Shown one piece after another: positions 41,989 through 63,291 of a DNA stretch of 64,000 bases. Below the pieces are notes generated by a model. That model was not told the origin of the DNA. It saw only the letters and a program-made list of their open reading frames with translations, and searched no databases. The position numbers and the translations under genes are program-made. Numbering within the stretch: the first letter of the stretch is position 1; every line of letters begins with the position of its first letter. The stretch is taken from assembly GCF_000756715.1 (NCBI RefSeq), contig NZ_CCSE01000001.1:1580001-1644000 (forward strand). Direction: 5' to 3'. The stretch is from Jeotgalicoccus saudimassiliensis. GTDB lineage: Bacteria > Bacillota > Bacilli > Staphylococcales > Salinicoccaceae.

Positions 41989-42228
41989 ATGGCAGGTCCA
42001 AGAAGAGGCGGTCGTCGTCGTAAAAAAGTTTGTTATTTCACAGCAAACGGTATTACGCACATCGACTACAAAGAAGTAGAACTTCTTAAAAAGTTCATTT
42101 CTGAACGTGGGAAAATTCTTCCTAGACGTGTTACAGGTACTTCAGCGAAGTATCAGCGTCAGTTAACTGGTGCTATCAAACGTGCACGTCACATGGCATT
42201 ATTACCATATGTTAAAGAAGAACAGTAA
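41989..42228 (+). CDS. rpsR: 30S ribosomal protein S18
   Basis: A 79-residue S18 ([20 protein letters not shown] at the N-terminus, [20 protein letters not shown] later), partner of S6. GGAGGG lies 7 nt before the ATG. It is normally the third gene of rpsF-ssb-rpsR; here about 2.9 kb of mod genes intervenes. Confidence 0.98.
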
Positions 42229-42238
42229 GAAATTACTG

Positions 42239-42273
42239 AACTCCTGATATCTTAGATATCAGGAGTTTTTCGT
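42239..42273 (+). terminator. rpsR terminator
   Basis: AACTCCTGATATC pairs perfectly with GATATCAGGAGTT around a 3-nt loop and is followed by TTTCGTTTTT. Confidence 0.93.
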
Positions 42274-42408
42274 TTTTCTAATTATCTTCCCTGTAAAATT
42301 TTAATTGGATTATCAATCCGGACATCATAGTAGTTATTAATATTGATTGCATATTTCTTCAGTTATACTTAAAGGGAAAGGCTCATTCAATTTAAAGGAG
42401 ATGACAGT

Positions 42409-43317
42409 GTGAACTATCAAAAAATTGTCCCGCATTTATGGTTTGATAAAAAAGCTGTTGAAGCCGCGCAGTGGTACACTTCGATTTTCCCGAATTCTGA
42501 AATTATCAGGAAAGATACTTTTAAAGATACGCCGTCAGGTCAAGCGACACAGGTTGTGTTTAAACTGATGGGCTACGAATTTATGGCACTGAGTGCCGGG
42601 CCGTACGCAACGAAAAATCCATCGATTTCTTTTATCGTTCAAGTTAATAGAAATAATGCAGAGCTGGTCGATAAGTTATATAAAAAACTGAAACAGGACG
42701 GTAAAGTATTAATGCCGCTGGATAAGTATCCGTTTAACGATAAATATGCCTGGGTCGAAGATAAATACGGCACATCCTGGCAGCTGTGGCTGCGTGATCA
42801 CCGAAGTAATAAAAATAATATCGTACCGTCACTGATGTTCGCGAACGATAATAAGGGCAAGGCAAAAGAAGCAACGGAGCTTTATGTTGACACGTTTAAA
42901 AAAAGTGAACATCTCGCATCGTTAAATTACCCGCCGGGTATGGAGCCTGATACAGAAGATATGATTATGCACGGTGAAGCCCGGCTGTTTAATAAGCGTT
43001 TTTCGTTTAACGACAGCGGACATAAGCATGATTTTGATTTCTCAGAAGGTGTTTCACTGCTTGTAAAATGCGATAATCAAAAAGAAATTGATAAATACTG
43101 GGAAAAATTATCGGCAGTGCCGGAAGCAGAAGAGTGCGGCTGGCTGAAAGATAAGTTTGGAGTGTCGTGGCAAATCGTCCCGAAAGTGATGGATGAGATG
43201 CTGGAAGAAGGTACTCCCGAACAGATAGCACGTGTCACACAGGCATTTCTTAAAATGAAAAAATTTGATATTGAGACGCTTGAAGAAGCATATAACTTAG
43301 ATAAAAAGAACTTATAA
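42409..43317 (+). CDS. Two-domain VOC-superfamily protein (PhnB/YdeN type)
   Basis: A 302-residue protein with two copies of the PhnB-like glyoxalase/VOC fold. The first (residues ~3-125) reads KIVPHLWFDKKAVEAAQWYTSIF and the second (about 135-270) reads NIVPSLMFANDNKGKAKEATELY. Both show the WQL/WQI strand (YGTSWQLW, FGVSWQIVPK) where such proteins end a domain. The substrate is not known. A GTG start with AAAGGAG 8 nt upstream is used. Its terminator has been split by the IS element downstream. Confidence 0.85.
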   Translation: MNYQKIVPHLWFDKKAVEAAQWYTSIFPNSEIIRKDTFKDTPSGQATQVVFKLMGYEFMALSAGPYATKNPSISFIVQVNRNNAELVDKLYKKLKQDGKVLMPLDKYPFNDKYAWVEDKYGTSWQLWLRDHRSNKNNIVPSLMFANDNKGKAKEATELYVDTFKKSEHLASLNYPPGMEPDTEDMIMHGEARLFNKRFSFNDSGHKHDFDFSEGVSLLVKCDNQKEIDKYWEKLSAVPEAEECGWLKDKFGVSWQIVPKVMDEMLEEGTPEQIARVTQAFLKMKKFDIETLEEAYNLDKKNL

Positions 43318-43343
43318 GTTGTATTAGACTCAGAAAAGATAAA

Positions 43344-43360
43344 AGGCACCCGGAGTATAA
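43344..43360. terminator. Left half of a bidirectional terminator interrupted by the IS
   Basis: AAAAGGCACCCGGA ends 6 bp before the IS. Its partner TCCGGGTGCCTTTT resumes 6 bp after the right IS end (45045-45058). Removing the element and one copy of the 4-bp duplication ATAA restores a perfect hairpin between the convergent VOC and lipoprotein genes. Confidence 0.85.
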
Positions 43361-43367
43361 TGATATG

Positions 43368-43418
43368 CTCCCCCTAAAGTAGACACTTAAAAAAGTGAAC
43401 TACTTTAGGGGGAGCTTT
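43368..43418 (+). promoter_or_regulatory. IS left-end hairpin covering the transposase ribosome site
   Basis: GCTCCCCCTAAAGTAG (43368-43383) is an exact inverted copy of CTACTTTAGGGGGAGC (43401-43416). CACTT and AAGTG can pair inside it. In RNA read in from outside, this hairpin would hide the AGGGGGAG ribosome site of orfA. Confidence 0.75.
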
Positions 43419-43421
43419 GTC

Positions 43422-44153
43422 TTGAAATCGAATATAAAATATTCAACGAATGAACTATTGAAATATATCGAATTATATTTAGAGGGTGTCTCTTTACGAG
43501 AGCTACGTGATAATTATCAGTTTGATTTAGATCCATCGACTTTTCGGCAGTATGTCAGGAAATATTTAGAACATGGAGTGAACGGTTTACTTAGACAACA
43601 CAATAATCGACATTATTCAGATCAATTTAAATATAAAGTGATTCAAGAATATCTTCGCAGTGATACGAGTTATAAAACGTTGGCTGTTAAATATAATATT
43701 CCTAGTCATCATACGGTGCGACAATGGGTGATACGATATACTGAAGGCAAAGAGAATCGAACGTATTCTCCAAAACCGGAGGTCTATCAAATGAAAAGCA
43801 GAAAAACAACATATGAGGAACGTATCGAGATTGTGGAAACCGTCATAAATAACCAATTATCTTATAAGGATGCGGCAGAAAAATTTAAGGTCAGCTACAA
43901 TAACGTCTATTCATGGACGCAAAAATATAAGAAATTTGGACCGAAAGCACTCGAAGATAATCGGGGTAAGAAGAAACCATCCGAAGCTCAAACCAGCGAA
44001 GAACAACTGAGAACTGAGATTGAAGCGCTCAGAGTCCGGAATCAGTGGTTAGAAATGGAAAATGAAACGTTAAAAAAGCAGGAACAAATGGAAAGAGAGT
44101 TGATCAGACAAGAATTCGCCAAAAAGCGTCGTACCAAACGATCGAAGCGTTAA
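43422..44153 (+). CDS. IS3-family OrfA (helix-turn-helix part of the transposase)
   Basis: About 243 residues with two HTH segments: one near residues 20-60 (VSLRELRDNYQ) and one near 65-115 (SDTSYKTLAVKYNI). A third HTH-like segment (QLSYKDAAEKFKVSYNNVYSW) and a C-terminal leucine-zipper coiled coil (LRTEIEALRVRNQWLEMENE) follow. The TTG at 43422 is chosen because AGGGGGAG lies 7-8 nt before it. The slippery A AAA AAG at 44072-44078 is in the correct phase for -1 frameshifting into orfB. Confidence 0.9.
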   Translation: MKSNIKYSTNELLKYIELYLEGVSLRELRDNYQFDLDPSTFRQYVRKYLEHGVNGLLRQHNNRHYSDQFKYKVIQEYLRSDTSYKTLAVKYNIPSHHTVRQWVIRYTEGKENRTYSPKPEVYQMKSRKTTYEERIEIVETVINNQLSYKDAAEKFKVSYNNVYSWTQKYKKFGPKALEDNRGKKKPSEAQTSEEQLRTEIEALRVRNQWLEMENETLKKQEQMERELIRQEFAKKRRTKRSKR

Positions 44154-44959
44154 AACATAAATACCCGATTGTCCATCTTTGCCAGTTTCTGGAAATTTAT
44201 CGAGCCAGCTATTATAAATGGCTCAATCGAAAACCCGCACAGTATGAAAAACGGGATCAAACATTGATGGCAATGATGTCAGACACCTATGAAGCATTAG
44301 AAGGCATATACGGTTATCGTCGAATGACGATATACCTGAATCATTACAGACAGGCCAAGGTGAATCACAAACATGTATATCGACTGATGAAAGTGATGAA
44401 CTTGAAATCGGTGATTCGTCGAAAGAAACGTCGATACAAAACAGTCCAACCAGACTATGTTGCTGCGAATATACTGAATCGCAAATTTCATGCAGCTAAA
44501 CCCATGCAGAAACTGGTGACTGATATTACTGAATTCAGTACGACCGATGGTCGCAAAGTCTATTTAAGTGCCGTGCTGGATCTCTGCACGAATAAAATCA
44601 TTGCGCATCACATAGATACACATAGCGATCAATCTCTGGTGACTCAGACCTTTAAACAAATAGAGCCACAGTTAATTGAAGGTCAAACCATCATCCACAC
44701 GGACCGTGGTTCCCAATACACGTCTCATGCGTTTCATCATTTTATTAAACAGACCCAATCGATTCATAGTATGTCGCGTCCTGGAAAATGTATTGATAAC
44801 GGACCGATTGAGAATGTATGGGGCATTATTAAATCTGAGAAGTATTACTTAAATAGATACGATACTATCACTGACCTAAAACAAGACATCACTGACTATA
44901 TTAAGTTCTACAATACACAGCGTGTCACATTGAAGATGGGCTTAAAGATACCTGCATAA
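44075..44959 (+). CDS. IS3-family OrfB (DDE integrase part), made by -1 frameshift from orfA
   Basis: The -1 frame is open from a TGA at 44063 to 44959 and has no ATG until 44264. The conserved N-terminal part (ALKHKYPIVHLCQFLE, YRASYYKW) lies before that ATG, so orfB is read as an OrfAB fusion of about 512 residues. The rve integrase core shows TDITEF (first Asp), HTDRGSQYTS (second Asp) and GPIENVWGIIKSE (Glu). Translation as a fusion is the normal mode for IS3 elements. Confidence 0.9.
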   Translation, partial: KAGTNGKRVDQTRIRQKASYQTIEALKHKYPIVHLCQFLEIYRASYYKWLNRKPAQYEKRDQTLMAMMSDTYEALEGIYGYRRMTIYLNHYRQAKVNHKHVYRLMKVMNLKSVIRRKKRRYKTVQPDYVAANILNRKFHAAKPMQKLVTDITEFSTTDGRKVYLSAVLDLCTNKIIAHHIDTHSDQSLVTQTFKQIEPQLIEGQTIIHTDRGSQYTSHAFHHFIKQTQSIHSMSRPGKCIDNGPIENVWGIIKSEKYYLNRYDTITDLKQDITDYIKFYNTQRVTLKMGLKIPA

Positions 44960-45077
44960 AAAATGCACACGACAATCGTCGTGTGCGTACAAAACACTAT
45001 TTGTTTTTTTACCTGTCTACTTGACGGGGGGCACATCAATAAATTCCGGGTGCCTTTTATTCGACTGTAAGCAGGTG

Positions 45078-45701
45078 TTAATCTCGCATTTCTTCATCCA
45101 AAATAGTCCACGACACTTCGTTTATTGATAATGCAGCAGGCATGCTGGTACCGAAATAATATTCATCTGCAGTTTTTATATCAGAAATGAATTGAGCATC
45201 TCTGGACTCTCCCGGTTCAAGCGAGCCTTCAAAGTTTTCTATACTGTCAAAGGAAGCGGCTGCATTGGTGTTGTCGCCTCCCTCGGGATCAGTTTTGATT
45301 CCGAGATAAAGCATGATGTCTTCTGCAGGAATCGGTTCATCGTCTACGTTTTTAAATGTCATATTTAATATAACTATTTCATCGATCAATGGTTCCAGTC
45401 CGTCTATTGTTTCTGTCGTCAATTCTCCGGAGTGAACAGTCAGCTCGTAATTCCCGAGTGTTGTCTGCACAAGTCCCGTCTCACCCAGTTTTAAACCAGT
45501 CTGATCATCAATATCTTCGTCTCCGCTGTCGTTATCTTCCTCGACAGACTCCTCTTCCTCAACATCAGCTTCTTCGGTCTCAGCCTCTGCTTCAGCAGTG
45601 TCATTTTCCTCAGCCATCGGCTCTTCCTCTTCATTGCCGCAGGCTGCCAGCAATGTGAGTGACAGAGCGCCTGTTGCAAACAAAGCAATTAATTTTTTCA
45701 T
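45078..45701 (-). CDS. Lipoprotein with acidic linker, DUF4352/DUF5067-like
   Basis: A 207-residue lipoprotein with lipobox LAAC (SLTLLAACGNEEEE). A Glu/Asp/Ala-rich linker spans about residues 25-60. The C-terminal beta-rich domain reads like an Ig-fold DUF4352/DUF5067 type (IVILNMTFKNVDDEPIPAED, then GSLEPGESRDAQF). This family match is tentative and no function is known. It is convergent with the VOC gene, and the terminator they shared is split by the IS about 20 bp past its stop. Confidence 0.65.
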   Translation of the reverse strand: MKKLIALFATGALSLTLLAACGNEEEEPMAEENDTAEAEAETEEADVEEEESVEEDNDSGDEDIDDQTGLKLGETGLVQTTLGNYELTVHSGELTTETIDGLEPLIDEIVILNMTFKNVDDEPIPAEDIMLYLGIKTDPEGGDNTNAAASFDSIENFEGSLEPGESRDAQFISDIKTADEYYFGTSMPAALSINEVSWTILDEEMRD

Positions 45702-45828
45702 AGGTGCATCCCCTGTTTATTAAATTTGCTGCCAGTCAGTTGCCGGCTGCCTTTACTATAATATTCCATTTCAAGGAGCATTATGCAAGTGCAATTTTAA
45801 TATAATGTCATAATTGCCATACTAGAGG

Positions 45829-46566
45829 TTATTTTTCTTTACGGCACTTTACCAGTAGAAACGGCGGAAATGTCTGCAGCTTATGTATTCGTTCATCGGG
45901 ATAGTGCTCAAATACTTCAGCTGAGTCGCCGAGTTCTTTTACTGCTTCTATTGTCAGCCCGTTTTGTATCAGCGAGTTAAGGATGGTATCCATTTTATGA
46001 TGATATTTTTTAATGACAATGTTATCGCGCCACGGGGAGTCCCGAACGCTTTCATCAAAATAATGATCGACACGGGCATACATACCCTGCTCATCTTCCA
46101 ACACGAGATTCTTTTCCACCGTCGCCGTCTGAATAGGGTGTTCTGCCGTAAACAGCAGCCGGCCTTCTCTGTTCAGCAATCCGGATAATTTCTTAGCCAG
46201 CGCATCAAAATCCTCAATATAGTGAAACACGAGTGACGAGACGATGAAATCATATTTACTTAAATCTGAGGCTGATAAAATACCATCATGAATCAAAGTA
46301 ACATCTTTTAGTTCATCATCTTCACGGCAGTGAGTAATCATATTGGCTGACGAATCCAGTCCTGTCATCGATGCCGGCTTAAACTGCAGCATATATTTTA
46401 AAAGATGACCGAATCCGCAGCCGATATCCAGCACGTCCATATTTTTTAAATTCGGCATGTGCTTTTTAATTTCAGGAAACTCAACAATCTCGTTGTAGCT
46501 CATCGGCATATGGCGGATTTCCTTATACATATTAAAGAAATTATCTTCATCGTACTGCTTTTCCAT
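45829..46566 (-). CDS. Class I SAM-dependent methyltransferase
   Basis: A 245-residue enzyme. SAM motif I is VLDIGCGFGHLLKYM near residue 41. Motif II/III stretches are GLDSSANMITHCRE and KYDFIVSSLVFHYIEDF. The substrate is not apparent; it resembles small-molecule (UbiE/Tam-like) methyltransferases. The ATG follows GGGGGAGTCATA. It lies alone on the minus strand, downstream of the stress gene and its terminator. Confidence 0.85.
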   Translation of the reverse strand: MEKQYDEDNFFNMYKEIRHMPMSYNEIVEFPEIKKHMPNLKNMDVLDIGCGFGHLLKYMLQFKPASMTGLDSSANMITHCREDDELKDVTLIHDGILSASDLSKYDFIVSSLVFHYIEDFDALAKKLSGLLNREGRLLFTAEHPIQTATVEKNLVLEDEQGMYARVDHYFDESVRDSPWRDNIVIKKYHHKMDTILNSLIQNGLTIEAVKELGDSAEVFEHYPDERIHKLQTFPPFLLVKCRKEK

Positions 46567-46586
46567 TATGACTCCCCCTGATAAAA

Positions 46587-46616
46587 GAATCTCCTATAAA
46601 TACATTATAGGAGATT
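46587..46616 (-). terminator. Terminator of the stress-protein gene
   Basis: GAATCTCCTATAA pairs with TTATAGGAGATTC and is followed on the minus strand by TTTTAT, 12 bp past the stop. Confidence 0.75.
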
Positions 46617-61537: not shown

Positions 61538-63291
61538 TGGCTGAAGTACTTGATAAAGTAGATGCGGTTGTTGTCGGTATGGGCTGGGCTGGCGGTATTG
61601 TCAGTGCAGAACTTGCCAAAGCAGGTAAGAATGTAGTCGGTCTTGAAAAAGGTAACCACGCGACGAGAAGTGACTACATCGGCGTAAAAGATGAGCTTCG
61701 TTTTGATAACCGTTATGAGATTATGCAGAGTTTAAAAGGGGACACAGTCACATCGAGAAACGAAATTGACGAAACAGCCCTGCCTGTCCGAACGATGAAA
61801 GACAATCAGCTCGGAACAGACCTCGGCGGTGCGAGTGTTCACTGGGCAGGTGCGACATACAGATACTGGCCGTATGAATTTGAAATACGCAGTCAGACAA
61901 TCGAACGTTACGGTGAAGATAAGATTCCTGACGATATGAGCCTTCAGGACTGGGGGATTACATATGAGGAAATGGAACCTTATTATGAGAAGTGGGAAGA
62001 CACGGCAGGTATTTCGGGGGAGCAGGACCCGCTTGCCCCTGAACGCAACAAACCGTGGCCGAACCCGCCCCTGAATGAAACGCCGTCATTAAAAATGTTT
62101 AAGGATGCTGCGTCAAACCTAGGACTGCACCCGTTCCAGGTGGCTGCAGGCAATATGTCGCAGAACTACGAAAATCCGGACGGGGAAAAACTGAATGCAT
62201 GTATGTACTGTTCATTCTGTACGAGAGCAGGGTGTGACTTTGATGCGAAATCGGATCCTTTGGCAACGGTAATTCCGACGGCGATGAGGCACGATAACTT
62301 TGAACTCCGTACACGTGCGAACGTGCGCCGTGTGCTTTACGATGAGGACAGCAGTGAAGCAACAGGTGTTATGTACGTGGATGAAACGACAGGTCAGGAA
62401 TACGAGCAGCCGGCGGACGTTGTCGTACTTGCGGCATTCGCATTTACGAACAACAGACTGTTGATGCTTTCTGAAATCGGTGAGCAGTATGATCCGGAAA
62501 CACGTGAAGGGCTGATCGGCCGTAACTTTAACGGGCAGTACAACTCGGCGTTCCACGGCGTTCGCGGATTCTTTGAAAATGAGAAGTTTAACCTGTATAT
62601 GGGGGCTGGCGCGTTAGGTGCAGCGGTAAACGACTATGCAGCGGATAACTTCGACCATTCAGACCTCGACTTTATCGGCGGCGGTGCGATTGAATTAAGA
62701 CAGTATGGTTTCGGGGCAATCTCGAGCAGTAACAACTATACGAGAGAAGTACCGAGCTGGGGTGCGGATTATAAAGCTGAATCGCTGAAATACGCGTACA
62801 GCGCACTTCGCATCTGGTATACAAATATCGCGATGTCATACTGGCATAACTATGTGGATCTCGATCCGACATATAAAGATGAGTACGGTGATCCGTTACT
62901 CCGCATCACGTATAAATTTGGTTCAAATGAAAAACCGATTGCCCAATTCGGTATCGACCGATGCCGTGAAATCATGGAAGAAATGGGCGCTGACATTATT
63001 GAAGAAGATGAAGTGGCCGAAGAGTTTAACCATGTATTTTCAGGTGGACACTACACAGGCGGTGTAGTGATGGGGGATGACCCGGAAACATCGGTAGTAA
63101 ACAACTATCTTCAGATGTGGGATGTCGACAACCTGTTTGTCGTCGGCGGCTCTGCATTCCCGCAGTTCGGCGGACACCACCCGACACCGACAATCGGTGC
63201 ACTGGCATACAGAGCAGCCGAAGGTGTTGAACGATTCTTAGATGAAGGTGGTCAGCTTGCAACAGCGAAAAGTAAGACGATGAGAGCATAA
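61537..63291 (+). CDS. GMC-family FAD oxidoreductase (gluconate 2-dehydrogenase-like large subunit)
   Basis: A 584-residue flavoprotein. The FAD fold is VVVGMGWAGGIVSAELAKAG, and GGASVHWAGATYRYW is the substrate-face motif. The C-terminal GMC stretch is FPQFGGHHPTPTIGALAYRA. A Cys cluster (CMYCSFCTRAGC) near residues 215-227 may bind a metal centre. It has no signal peptide and would leave the cell by hitch-hiking with the Tat-tagged small subunit. The cytochrome c subunit of the proteobacterial complex is missing. The sugar-acid substrate is inferred. Confidence 0.9.
   Translation: MAEVLDKVDAVVVGMGWAGGIVSAELAKAGKNVVGLEKGNHATRSDYIGVKDELRFDNRYEIMQSLKGDTVTSRNEIDETALPVRTMKDNQLGTDLGGASVHWAGATYRYWPYEFEIRSQTIERYGEDKIPDDMSLQDWGITYEEMEPYYEKWEDTAGISGEQDPLAPERNKPWPNPPLNETPSLKMFKDAASNLGLHPFQVAAGNMSQNYENPDGEKLNACMYCSFCTRAGCDFDAKSDPLATVIPTAMRHDNFELRTRANVRRVLYDEDSSEATGVMYVDETTGQEYEQPADVVVLAAFAFTNNRLLMLSEIGEQYDPETREGLIGRNFNGQYNSAFHGVRGFFENEKFNLYMGAGALGAAVNDYAADNFDHSDLDFIGGGAIELRQYGFGAISSSNNYTREVPSWGADYKAESLKYAYSALRIWYTNIAMSYWHNYVDLDPTYKDEYGDPLLRITYKFGSNEKPIAQFGIDRCREIMEEMGADIIEEDEVAEEFNHVFSGGHYTGGVVMGDDPETSVVNNYLQMWDVDNLFVVGGSAFPQFGGHHPTPTIGALAYRAAEGVERFLDEGGQLATAKSKTMRA

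Follow-up and report, generated by a model that had tools for sequence, protein, structure and literature searches.

An insertion sequence that lies exactly in the loop of a transcription terminator raises the question of whether the hairpin attracted it. The element considered here resides in Jeotgalicoccus saudimassiliensis, within a stretch of 64,000 nucleotides (contig NZ_CCSE01000001.1, positions 1,580,001 to 1,644,000) that is called the window below and from whose first letter coordinates are counted. Target choice in the IS3 family is usually described as weak. However, the sites occupied by this element and its relatives lead to a reading that we hold with considerable confidence: ISSau2-like IS3 elements aim insertion at the loops of DNA palindromes, mostly terminator hairpins, or REP-like repeats in genomes rich in them, by shape and not by sequence.

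A terminator hairpin split by an IS3-family element

The IS3-family insertion sequence of 1,678 bp (43361-45038) occupies the loop of the hairpin of an intrinsic terminator, and the ATAA target duplication at this site is the 4-nt hairpin loop itself. Flanks joined with one copy of ATAA pair in an 18-19-bp stem that includes one G-T pair. As RNA, the joined hairpin has a minimum free energy (MFE) of -32.6 kcal/mol. As DNA, it folds at -20.1 kcal/mol compared to a shuffle mean of -5.1 (z = -6.9), and none of 200 shuffles is as good. The joined site, AAAAGGCACCCGGA..TCCGGGTGCCTTTT, reads as a GC-rich stem followed by a T-tract, which is the arrangement expected of a putative intrinsic (rho-independent) terminator.

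Most of what an initial annotation had said of this locus holds. It gave the stem arms correctly as AAAAGGCACCCGGA and TCCGGGTGCCTTTT, the IS3-family identity that it proposed is borne out by matches of orfB to Pfam rve and NCBIfam transpos_IS3, the insertion is in the loop, and the neighbouring genes (42409-43317 on the plus strand and 45078-45701 on the minus strand) are convergent. Joining the flanks restores the hairpin that it called perfect, but the stem contains the G-T pair and is longer than had been described (43339-43356 with 45043-45060). Its span of 43344-45058 contains the element but takes in the stem arms as well.

The window's genome, a single contig of 2.19 Mb, carries one full copy of the element, and the closest named relatives found with it are Jeotgalicoccus records. 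An Rfam search of positions 42000-46600 gave no match. The downstream gene has no Pfam match, and its match to PplA is weak and below the cut-off. No empty allele of the site was found among the genomes of eight other species of the genus. The upstream gene is found in three of these eight, with a different hairpin after each.

Table 1. Features of the insertion site and of the element, in window coordinates
Feature	Position	Strand	Evidence or remark
Upstream gene, 302 aa, 3-demethylubiquinone-9 3-methyltransferase / glyoxalase-like family	42409..43317	+	ORF; Pfam PF06983, E 3.5e-62
Left arm of split terminator hairpin, ATAAAAGGCACCCGGAGT	43339..43356	.	Joined-flank fold, stem score
ATAA target duplication, copy 1 (hairpin loop)	43357..43360	.	
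IS3-family insertion sequence, 1678 bp, ISSau2-like clade	43361..45038	+	Ends, target duplication, NCBIfam transpos_IS3, tree
Left terminal inverted repeat (IRL), TGATATGCTCCCCCTAAAGTAGACA	43361..43385	+	
-10-like TATGCT in left end	43364..43369	+	TATGCT in 90/111 left ends
Left-end hairpin, terminal repeat pairs with orfA ribosome-binding site	43367..43415	+	Fold z = -9.8
Putative Shine-Dalgarno AGGGGGAG, 7 nt before TTG 43422	43407..43414	+	Sequence
orfA, 243 aa from TTG, helix-turn-helix	43422..44153	+	Pfam HTH_28, HTH_Tnp_1
orfB, DDE (rve) transposase, open in -1 frame	44066..44959	+	Pfam rve, NCBIfam transpos_IS3
Slippery heptamer A AAA AAG in frame with orfA, where a -1 frameshift is expected	44072..44078	+	Sequence; mechanism by analogy with the IS3 family
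Terminator-like hairpin with ATTTTTTATG tail, facing transcription of the right-hand (leftward) gene	44965..44986	-	Terminator scan
Right terminal inverted repeat (IRR), reverse complement TGATGTGCCCCCCGTCAAGTAGACA	45014..45038	-	
-35-like TTGACG in right end	45021..45026	+	TTGACA or TTGACG in 109/111 right ends
ATAA target duplication, copy 2	45039..45042	.	
Right arm of split terminator hairpin, ATTCCGGGTGCCTTTTAT	45043..45060	.	Joined-flank fold, stem score
Downstream convergent gene, putative lipoprotein, 207 aa	45078..45701	-	ORF

The coding content and ends of the element are those of an IS3-family member. Its orfB matches Pfam rve with 78.7 bits (E 4.4e-22) and NCBIfam transpos_IS3 with 283.8 bits against a cut-off of 160. 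The DD(35)E spacing of the catalytic domain is present, with D152, D212 and E248 invariant in a three-row alignment and 35 residues between the last two. A candidate A AAA AAG heptamer lies in the right register where the -1 reading frame of orfB becomes open. The terminal repeats are 25 bp long and imperfect, and the TG...CA ends and 3-5 bp duplications that mark the family are found in the element and among its relatives. In a maximum-likelihood tree of 61 OrfB proteins, made by a quick search without bootstrap, one branch with 98% SH-aLRT unites the window element, ISSau2 and 43 others (a clade of 45 rows). IS150, ISKpn8 and ISEnfa3, the nearest named classical relatives with about 36% OrfB identity to the window element, fall outside this clade, and IS150 is a sister lineage in the tree. 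Judged from its sequence, the element looks intact and belongs to an ISSau2-like clade of the IS3 family that lies either beside the IS150 group or inside it.

Target sites of related elements

Relatives were collected from nine genomes of the genus, from 157 genomes of the order (10 with matches at E <= 1e-70) and from a class-wide sample of 398 genomes (matches at E <= 1e-60 in 41). Because no more than six candidates were scored per genome in the class-wide search, copy numbers should be read as minima. Element ends were set by end motifs in 115/115 loci, with L041, which is cut at a contig end, left out; copies from E. faecium, Listeria and a P. larvae plasmid stand outside the counts. The main measure is a dyad-centred stem score, computed for the 112 sites with 60-nt flanks (L039, L148 and L149 are left out). 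Its strong cut of 10.5 is the 99th percentile of 5,737 nearby flank positions. Identical flanks were collapsed for column-composition counts and for counts based on the MFE criterion.

A matching target site duplication (TSD) of at least 3 bp is present at 89 of the 115 loci, and 82 of the 88 distinct ones are 3 bp long. Stem scores of at least 10.5 occur at 54/88 TSD-bearing sites (61%) and at 58/112 sites with both flanks, compared to 1.1% of the 5,737 flank positions. Of 3,000 pairs of swapped flanks, 3.5% score as high. With a looser cut of 7.5, the numbers rise to 66/88 TSD-bearing sites and 77/112 of all sites, against 6.9% of flank positions and 11.7% of swaps. The pattern is spread over many genomes: 31 of the 37 having TSD-bearing sites carry at least one strong hairpin site, and 49/66 sites pass the strong cut when repeat-targeting lineages are left out. 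An MFE-based criterion gives a weaker contrast (47/89 TSD-bearing sites, 325/3,659 controls and 359/2,000 swapped flanks). Used alone, it was rejected as the main measure because it is too permissive, with 8.9% of controls and 18% of swaps passing. A criterion that combines the fold with an A- or T-tract is satisfied at 42/89 TSD-bearing sites and at 105/3,659 controls.

The duplications are centred on the hairpins that they interrupt. At the 54 strong sites, the TSD centre minus the hairpin centre is -0.18 +/- 2.4 nt, the median stem is 15 and the median loop is 6. The 88 distinct sites share no sequence consensus, and none of 50 flanking columns exceeds 0.36 bits. Columns are A-rich from -25 to -14 and T-rich from +12 to +25, and A and T are slightly favoured within the duplication itself. 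A common target consists of an A-tract, a stem, a loop, a second stem and a T-tract. With no consensus in sequence, and with A-rich columns to the left and T-rich columns to the right, what these targets share is a shape, that of an intrinsic terminator facing both ways.

The initial annotation had suggested that hairpin structure might be the target signal and had named copies in unstructured sites as evidence to the contrary. The strong sites of the relatives, together with the ISSau2 empty site described below, favour the suggestion. Such contrary copies do exist as a minority, although most sites are structured. Among TSD-bearing sites, 34/88 score under 10.5 and 22/88 under 7.5; some of those below threshold are longer-looped hairpins by eye, and others, such as L123, L144 and L150, are without visible structure. 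Because these 22 sites score below 7.5, the hairpin preference is strong but not absolute.

Jeotgalicoccus sites and an empty site for ISSau2

Draft genome G003, from the same genus, is broken at its copies, leaving seven broken left ends and as many right ends. These ends re-pair one to one, and every pair has a TSD of at least 3 bp and a score of at least 9.5 (15.0, 10.5, 9.5, 17.0, 11.5, 12.0 and 16.5). The pairing is inferred across contig ends, not within one contig, and two rows had an alternative partner. Two further copies in the genus are also in hairpins: L038 scores 15.0, and L039 is a hairpin by the fold criterion. Thus, counting the window site, these two and the G003 pairs, 10/10 Jeotgalicoccus sites are hairpins, with short remnants and the fragment L012 left out of the count.

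Two loci hold mini-elements that consist of only the two ends. L009 (G001:C1, ~652,070-652,190) is ~120 bp long and L031 (G003:C6, ~63,139-63,200) is ~60 bp long. Both also sit between palindrome arms, and they are likely to be non-autonomous derivatives with the same target. A repeat scan found no inverted repeat of at least 12 around the G001 mini-element, though its flank arms are readable by eye.

An empty-site strain, one of the checks that had been proposed for the window site, is available for the relative ISSau2. A copy of ISSau2 on S. aureus plasmid NZ_CP094802.1 is inside a 20-bp terminator stem with a 3-bp TSD. The joined site has 83 matches in plasmid records, 72 of them covering at least 80%, and 8 of the 15 matches listed, from sister plasmids, carry the uninterrupted hairpin with 100% identity over 175 nt. 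A search for an empty record of the Macrococcoides site found none.

Repeat palindromes as targets

In genus g12 (G067, G069 and G071), most copies are located in one class of intergenic palindromes, CGCACGATATCT...SGTGCG. G069 carries a 27-bp palindrome 326 times, which amounts to ~0.3% of its genome. All of its copies (6/6) are in this palindrome, and both orientations relative to the palindrome are equally represented (three copies each). The palindrome often occurs in tandem arrays with a period of ~40 bp, for example, at contig 3 504724-505190 (L044, L048 and L058). In G067 (L046-L069), 10/16 copies lack a matching 3-bp duplication, though most of their flanks are half palindromes. These mismatched duplications suggest recombination between copies. 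G071 also contains another IS lineage (L055), which lies within a terminator. Copies from G411 and G323 (L084, L091, L107-L111) lie beside a small hairpin, at nearly one point of an intergenic repeat that has two such hairpins.

Other elements in the same genomes

Other elements with rve transposases were dropped as a negative control, since 31/77 of them also sit in hairpins, and some of their boundaries are a few bases off. IS256-family copies were taken as the control for this reason. In three of the same genomes, only 1/23 IS256-family copies reaches the strong score (Fisher p = 5e-7 compared to 54/88). DDE_Tnp_1 elements were left out, as that family may include IS1182 hairpin-targeters.

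The other IS3-type groups range from one extreme to the other. Hairpin shares are high in G327c (8/9), G429a (5/6) and G466b (5/5), so that 18/20 copies of these groups (L202-L216, L226-L230), which lie outside the clade, are in terminator-like hairpins. None are found in G067c (0/10), G454c (0/5) and G351c (0/4). The trait is therefore not confined to the clade of the window element, and many IS3-type elements of these bacteria, though by no means all, land in terminators.

Alternative explanations

The window's genome has one full copy, and a single insertion could have happened on a terminator by chance. This account has negligible probability given the hairpin enrichment across the clade, and it is refuted by the 54/88 strong sites, by the dyad centring at these sites and by the end pairing of the G003 copies. 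It is also highly improbable that elements insert anywhere and that the copies in terminators remain because they harm no gene. All of the sites are long-established in assembled genomes, where selection would leave intergenic landings. However, IS256-family copies experience similar selection in the same genomes and seldom occupy hairpins, and selection for intergenic positions explains neither centring on the dyad within ~2 nt nor the presence of every G069 copy in one short palindrome family. Survivorship was rejected on these three grounds.

The remaining alternatives accept that targets are chosen and differ in what is recognized. The A- and T-tracts ~15-25 bp to either side are the strongest column signal, and bent or flexible DNA at these tracts, rather than the stem, might guide insertion. 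Yet swapped flanks keep the tracts and lose the hairpin, and the drop from 61% to 3.5% means that true flank partners are matched far beyond their tracts. REP-like palindromes of G069 also hold copies without having tracts, and we regard tract recognition as quite improbable. Termination itself could be the signal, whether through pausing of RNA polymerase, the hairpin in the nascent RNA or local supercoiling, leaving the DNA hairpin only a correlate. Most target hairpins do carry A- and T-tracts, and the genes that flank the window site converge. Copies in G069 and G071, in contrast, occupy tandem intergenic palindromes that have no U-tracts, and dyad centring fits DNA symmetry better than it fits a polymerase that stops at the 3' end of a tract. 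Termination as the signal is consequently unlikely, and recognition of palindrome shape in the DNA is the reading that is carried forward here.

Hairpins and promoter-like sequences within the element

The initial annotation had also suggested that the insertion may let transcripts run on past the split terminator. The element brings hairpins of its own, of which one, near the right end (44986-44965 on the minus strand), is terminator-like with a T-tail and faces the leftward gene. The left end forms another, very stable hairpin (-37.7 kcal/mol), in which the left terminal repeat pairs with the sequence presumed to be the orfA ribosome-binding site. The tail of this left hairpin is not a clear T-tract, and a terminator scan of the element does not list it. 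When left ends of the clade are folded one by one, 56 of 57 distinct sequences fold at -10 kcal/mol or lower. The arms of this hairpin differ together, for example, as CCCCCTAAAGTAG/CTACTTTAGGGGG and CCCTATAGAGT/ACTCTATAGGG. RNAalifold applied to a MAFFT alignment of the 57 left ends returned only four pairs and no consensus left-end hairpin. The two outer ends carry promoter-like hexamers, and TATGCT (43364-43369) and TTGACG (45021-45026) would form a putative promoter at the junction of a circle.

A model for insertion can be assembled from these parts. In the IS3 family, a frameshifted OrfAB protein makes an excised circle, and OrfAB produced by -1 frameshifting would do the same here. The abutted ends of the circle would then attack a hairpin-forming site at points staggered by 3-4 bp around its dyad axis, perhaps while the site is in cruciform form or unwound during transcription. 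An insertion in the loop would split the terminator and spare coding sequence. In messages that read into the element from outside, the left terminal repeat could fold away the ribosome-binding site of the transposase, while messages begun at the circle junction would start inside the 5' arm and presumably lack this seal. Recognition of the folded form, the circle promoter, translational shielding and the effect on termination are all proposed by inference.

Relation to known hairpin-targeting elements

Several other elements use similar targets. Group IIC introns prefer terminator hairpins, and they differ from the window element in that they move by RNA-based retrohoming and have no transposase. 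ISSau2, an IS3-family element of Staphylococcus aureus, is alike in its OrfB clade, its similar ends (TGAAATGCTCCC..) and its terminator-loop copy. It differs in host and target sequences, and its OrfB is 42% identical to that of the window element. IS1397 and ISKpn1, also of the IS3 family, reportedly insert at the palindrome loop. Their target is a repeat family with a defined sequence, whereas the clade of the window element uses any terminator hairpin, with no consensus. The window element and most of its relatives do not show such specificity for a single repeat family; only the g12 genomes use a repeat. One report describes IS1397 and ISKpn1 as inserting specifically in REP or palindromic extragenic sequences of enterobacteria, with specificity that resides in the transposase (PMC1525189).

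Shape without sequence has been described for another family. The staphylococcal element IS1272/TnSha1 of the IS1182 family is reported to target hairpins, several of them confirmed terminators, with no primary sequence consensus; it inserts bluntly, removes part of the stem and leaves no target duplication (PMC4923244). The window element has a transposase of another family, duplicates 4 bp and keeps the full stem. Likewise, the empty-site match of ISSau2 shows that nothing was lost. IS1447, an IS3 element of Firmicutes, is described without a hairpin target in the section of its report that concerns it (PMC6211511). No report of terminator targeting by the IS3 family was found in a search of open-access papers, which leave out most subscription journals.

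Implications for IS3-family elements

Among IS150-type IS3 elements of the Bacilli, insertion into terminator loops by shape may be widespread and perhaps even ancestral, although it could equally prove to be narrower. On this broader proposal, a complex of transposase and circle would read the extruded hairpin, and the element would be built for life in a broken terminator, with a repeat complementary to the ribosome-binding site that silences read-through and a junction promoter that starts transcription past the arm.

IS3-family elements rank with the most common mobile DNAs of bacteria. Their spread with little harm would be explained if a large fraction of them homes on terminators by shape. 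A shape rule would predict IS3 positions in any genome and would constitute a sequence-free safe-harbour rule for insertion, and IS3 elements could serve as probes for palindromes that extrude in living cells. It would also suggest that insertion sequences steadily edit the boundaries of transcription.
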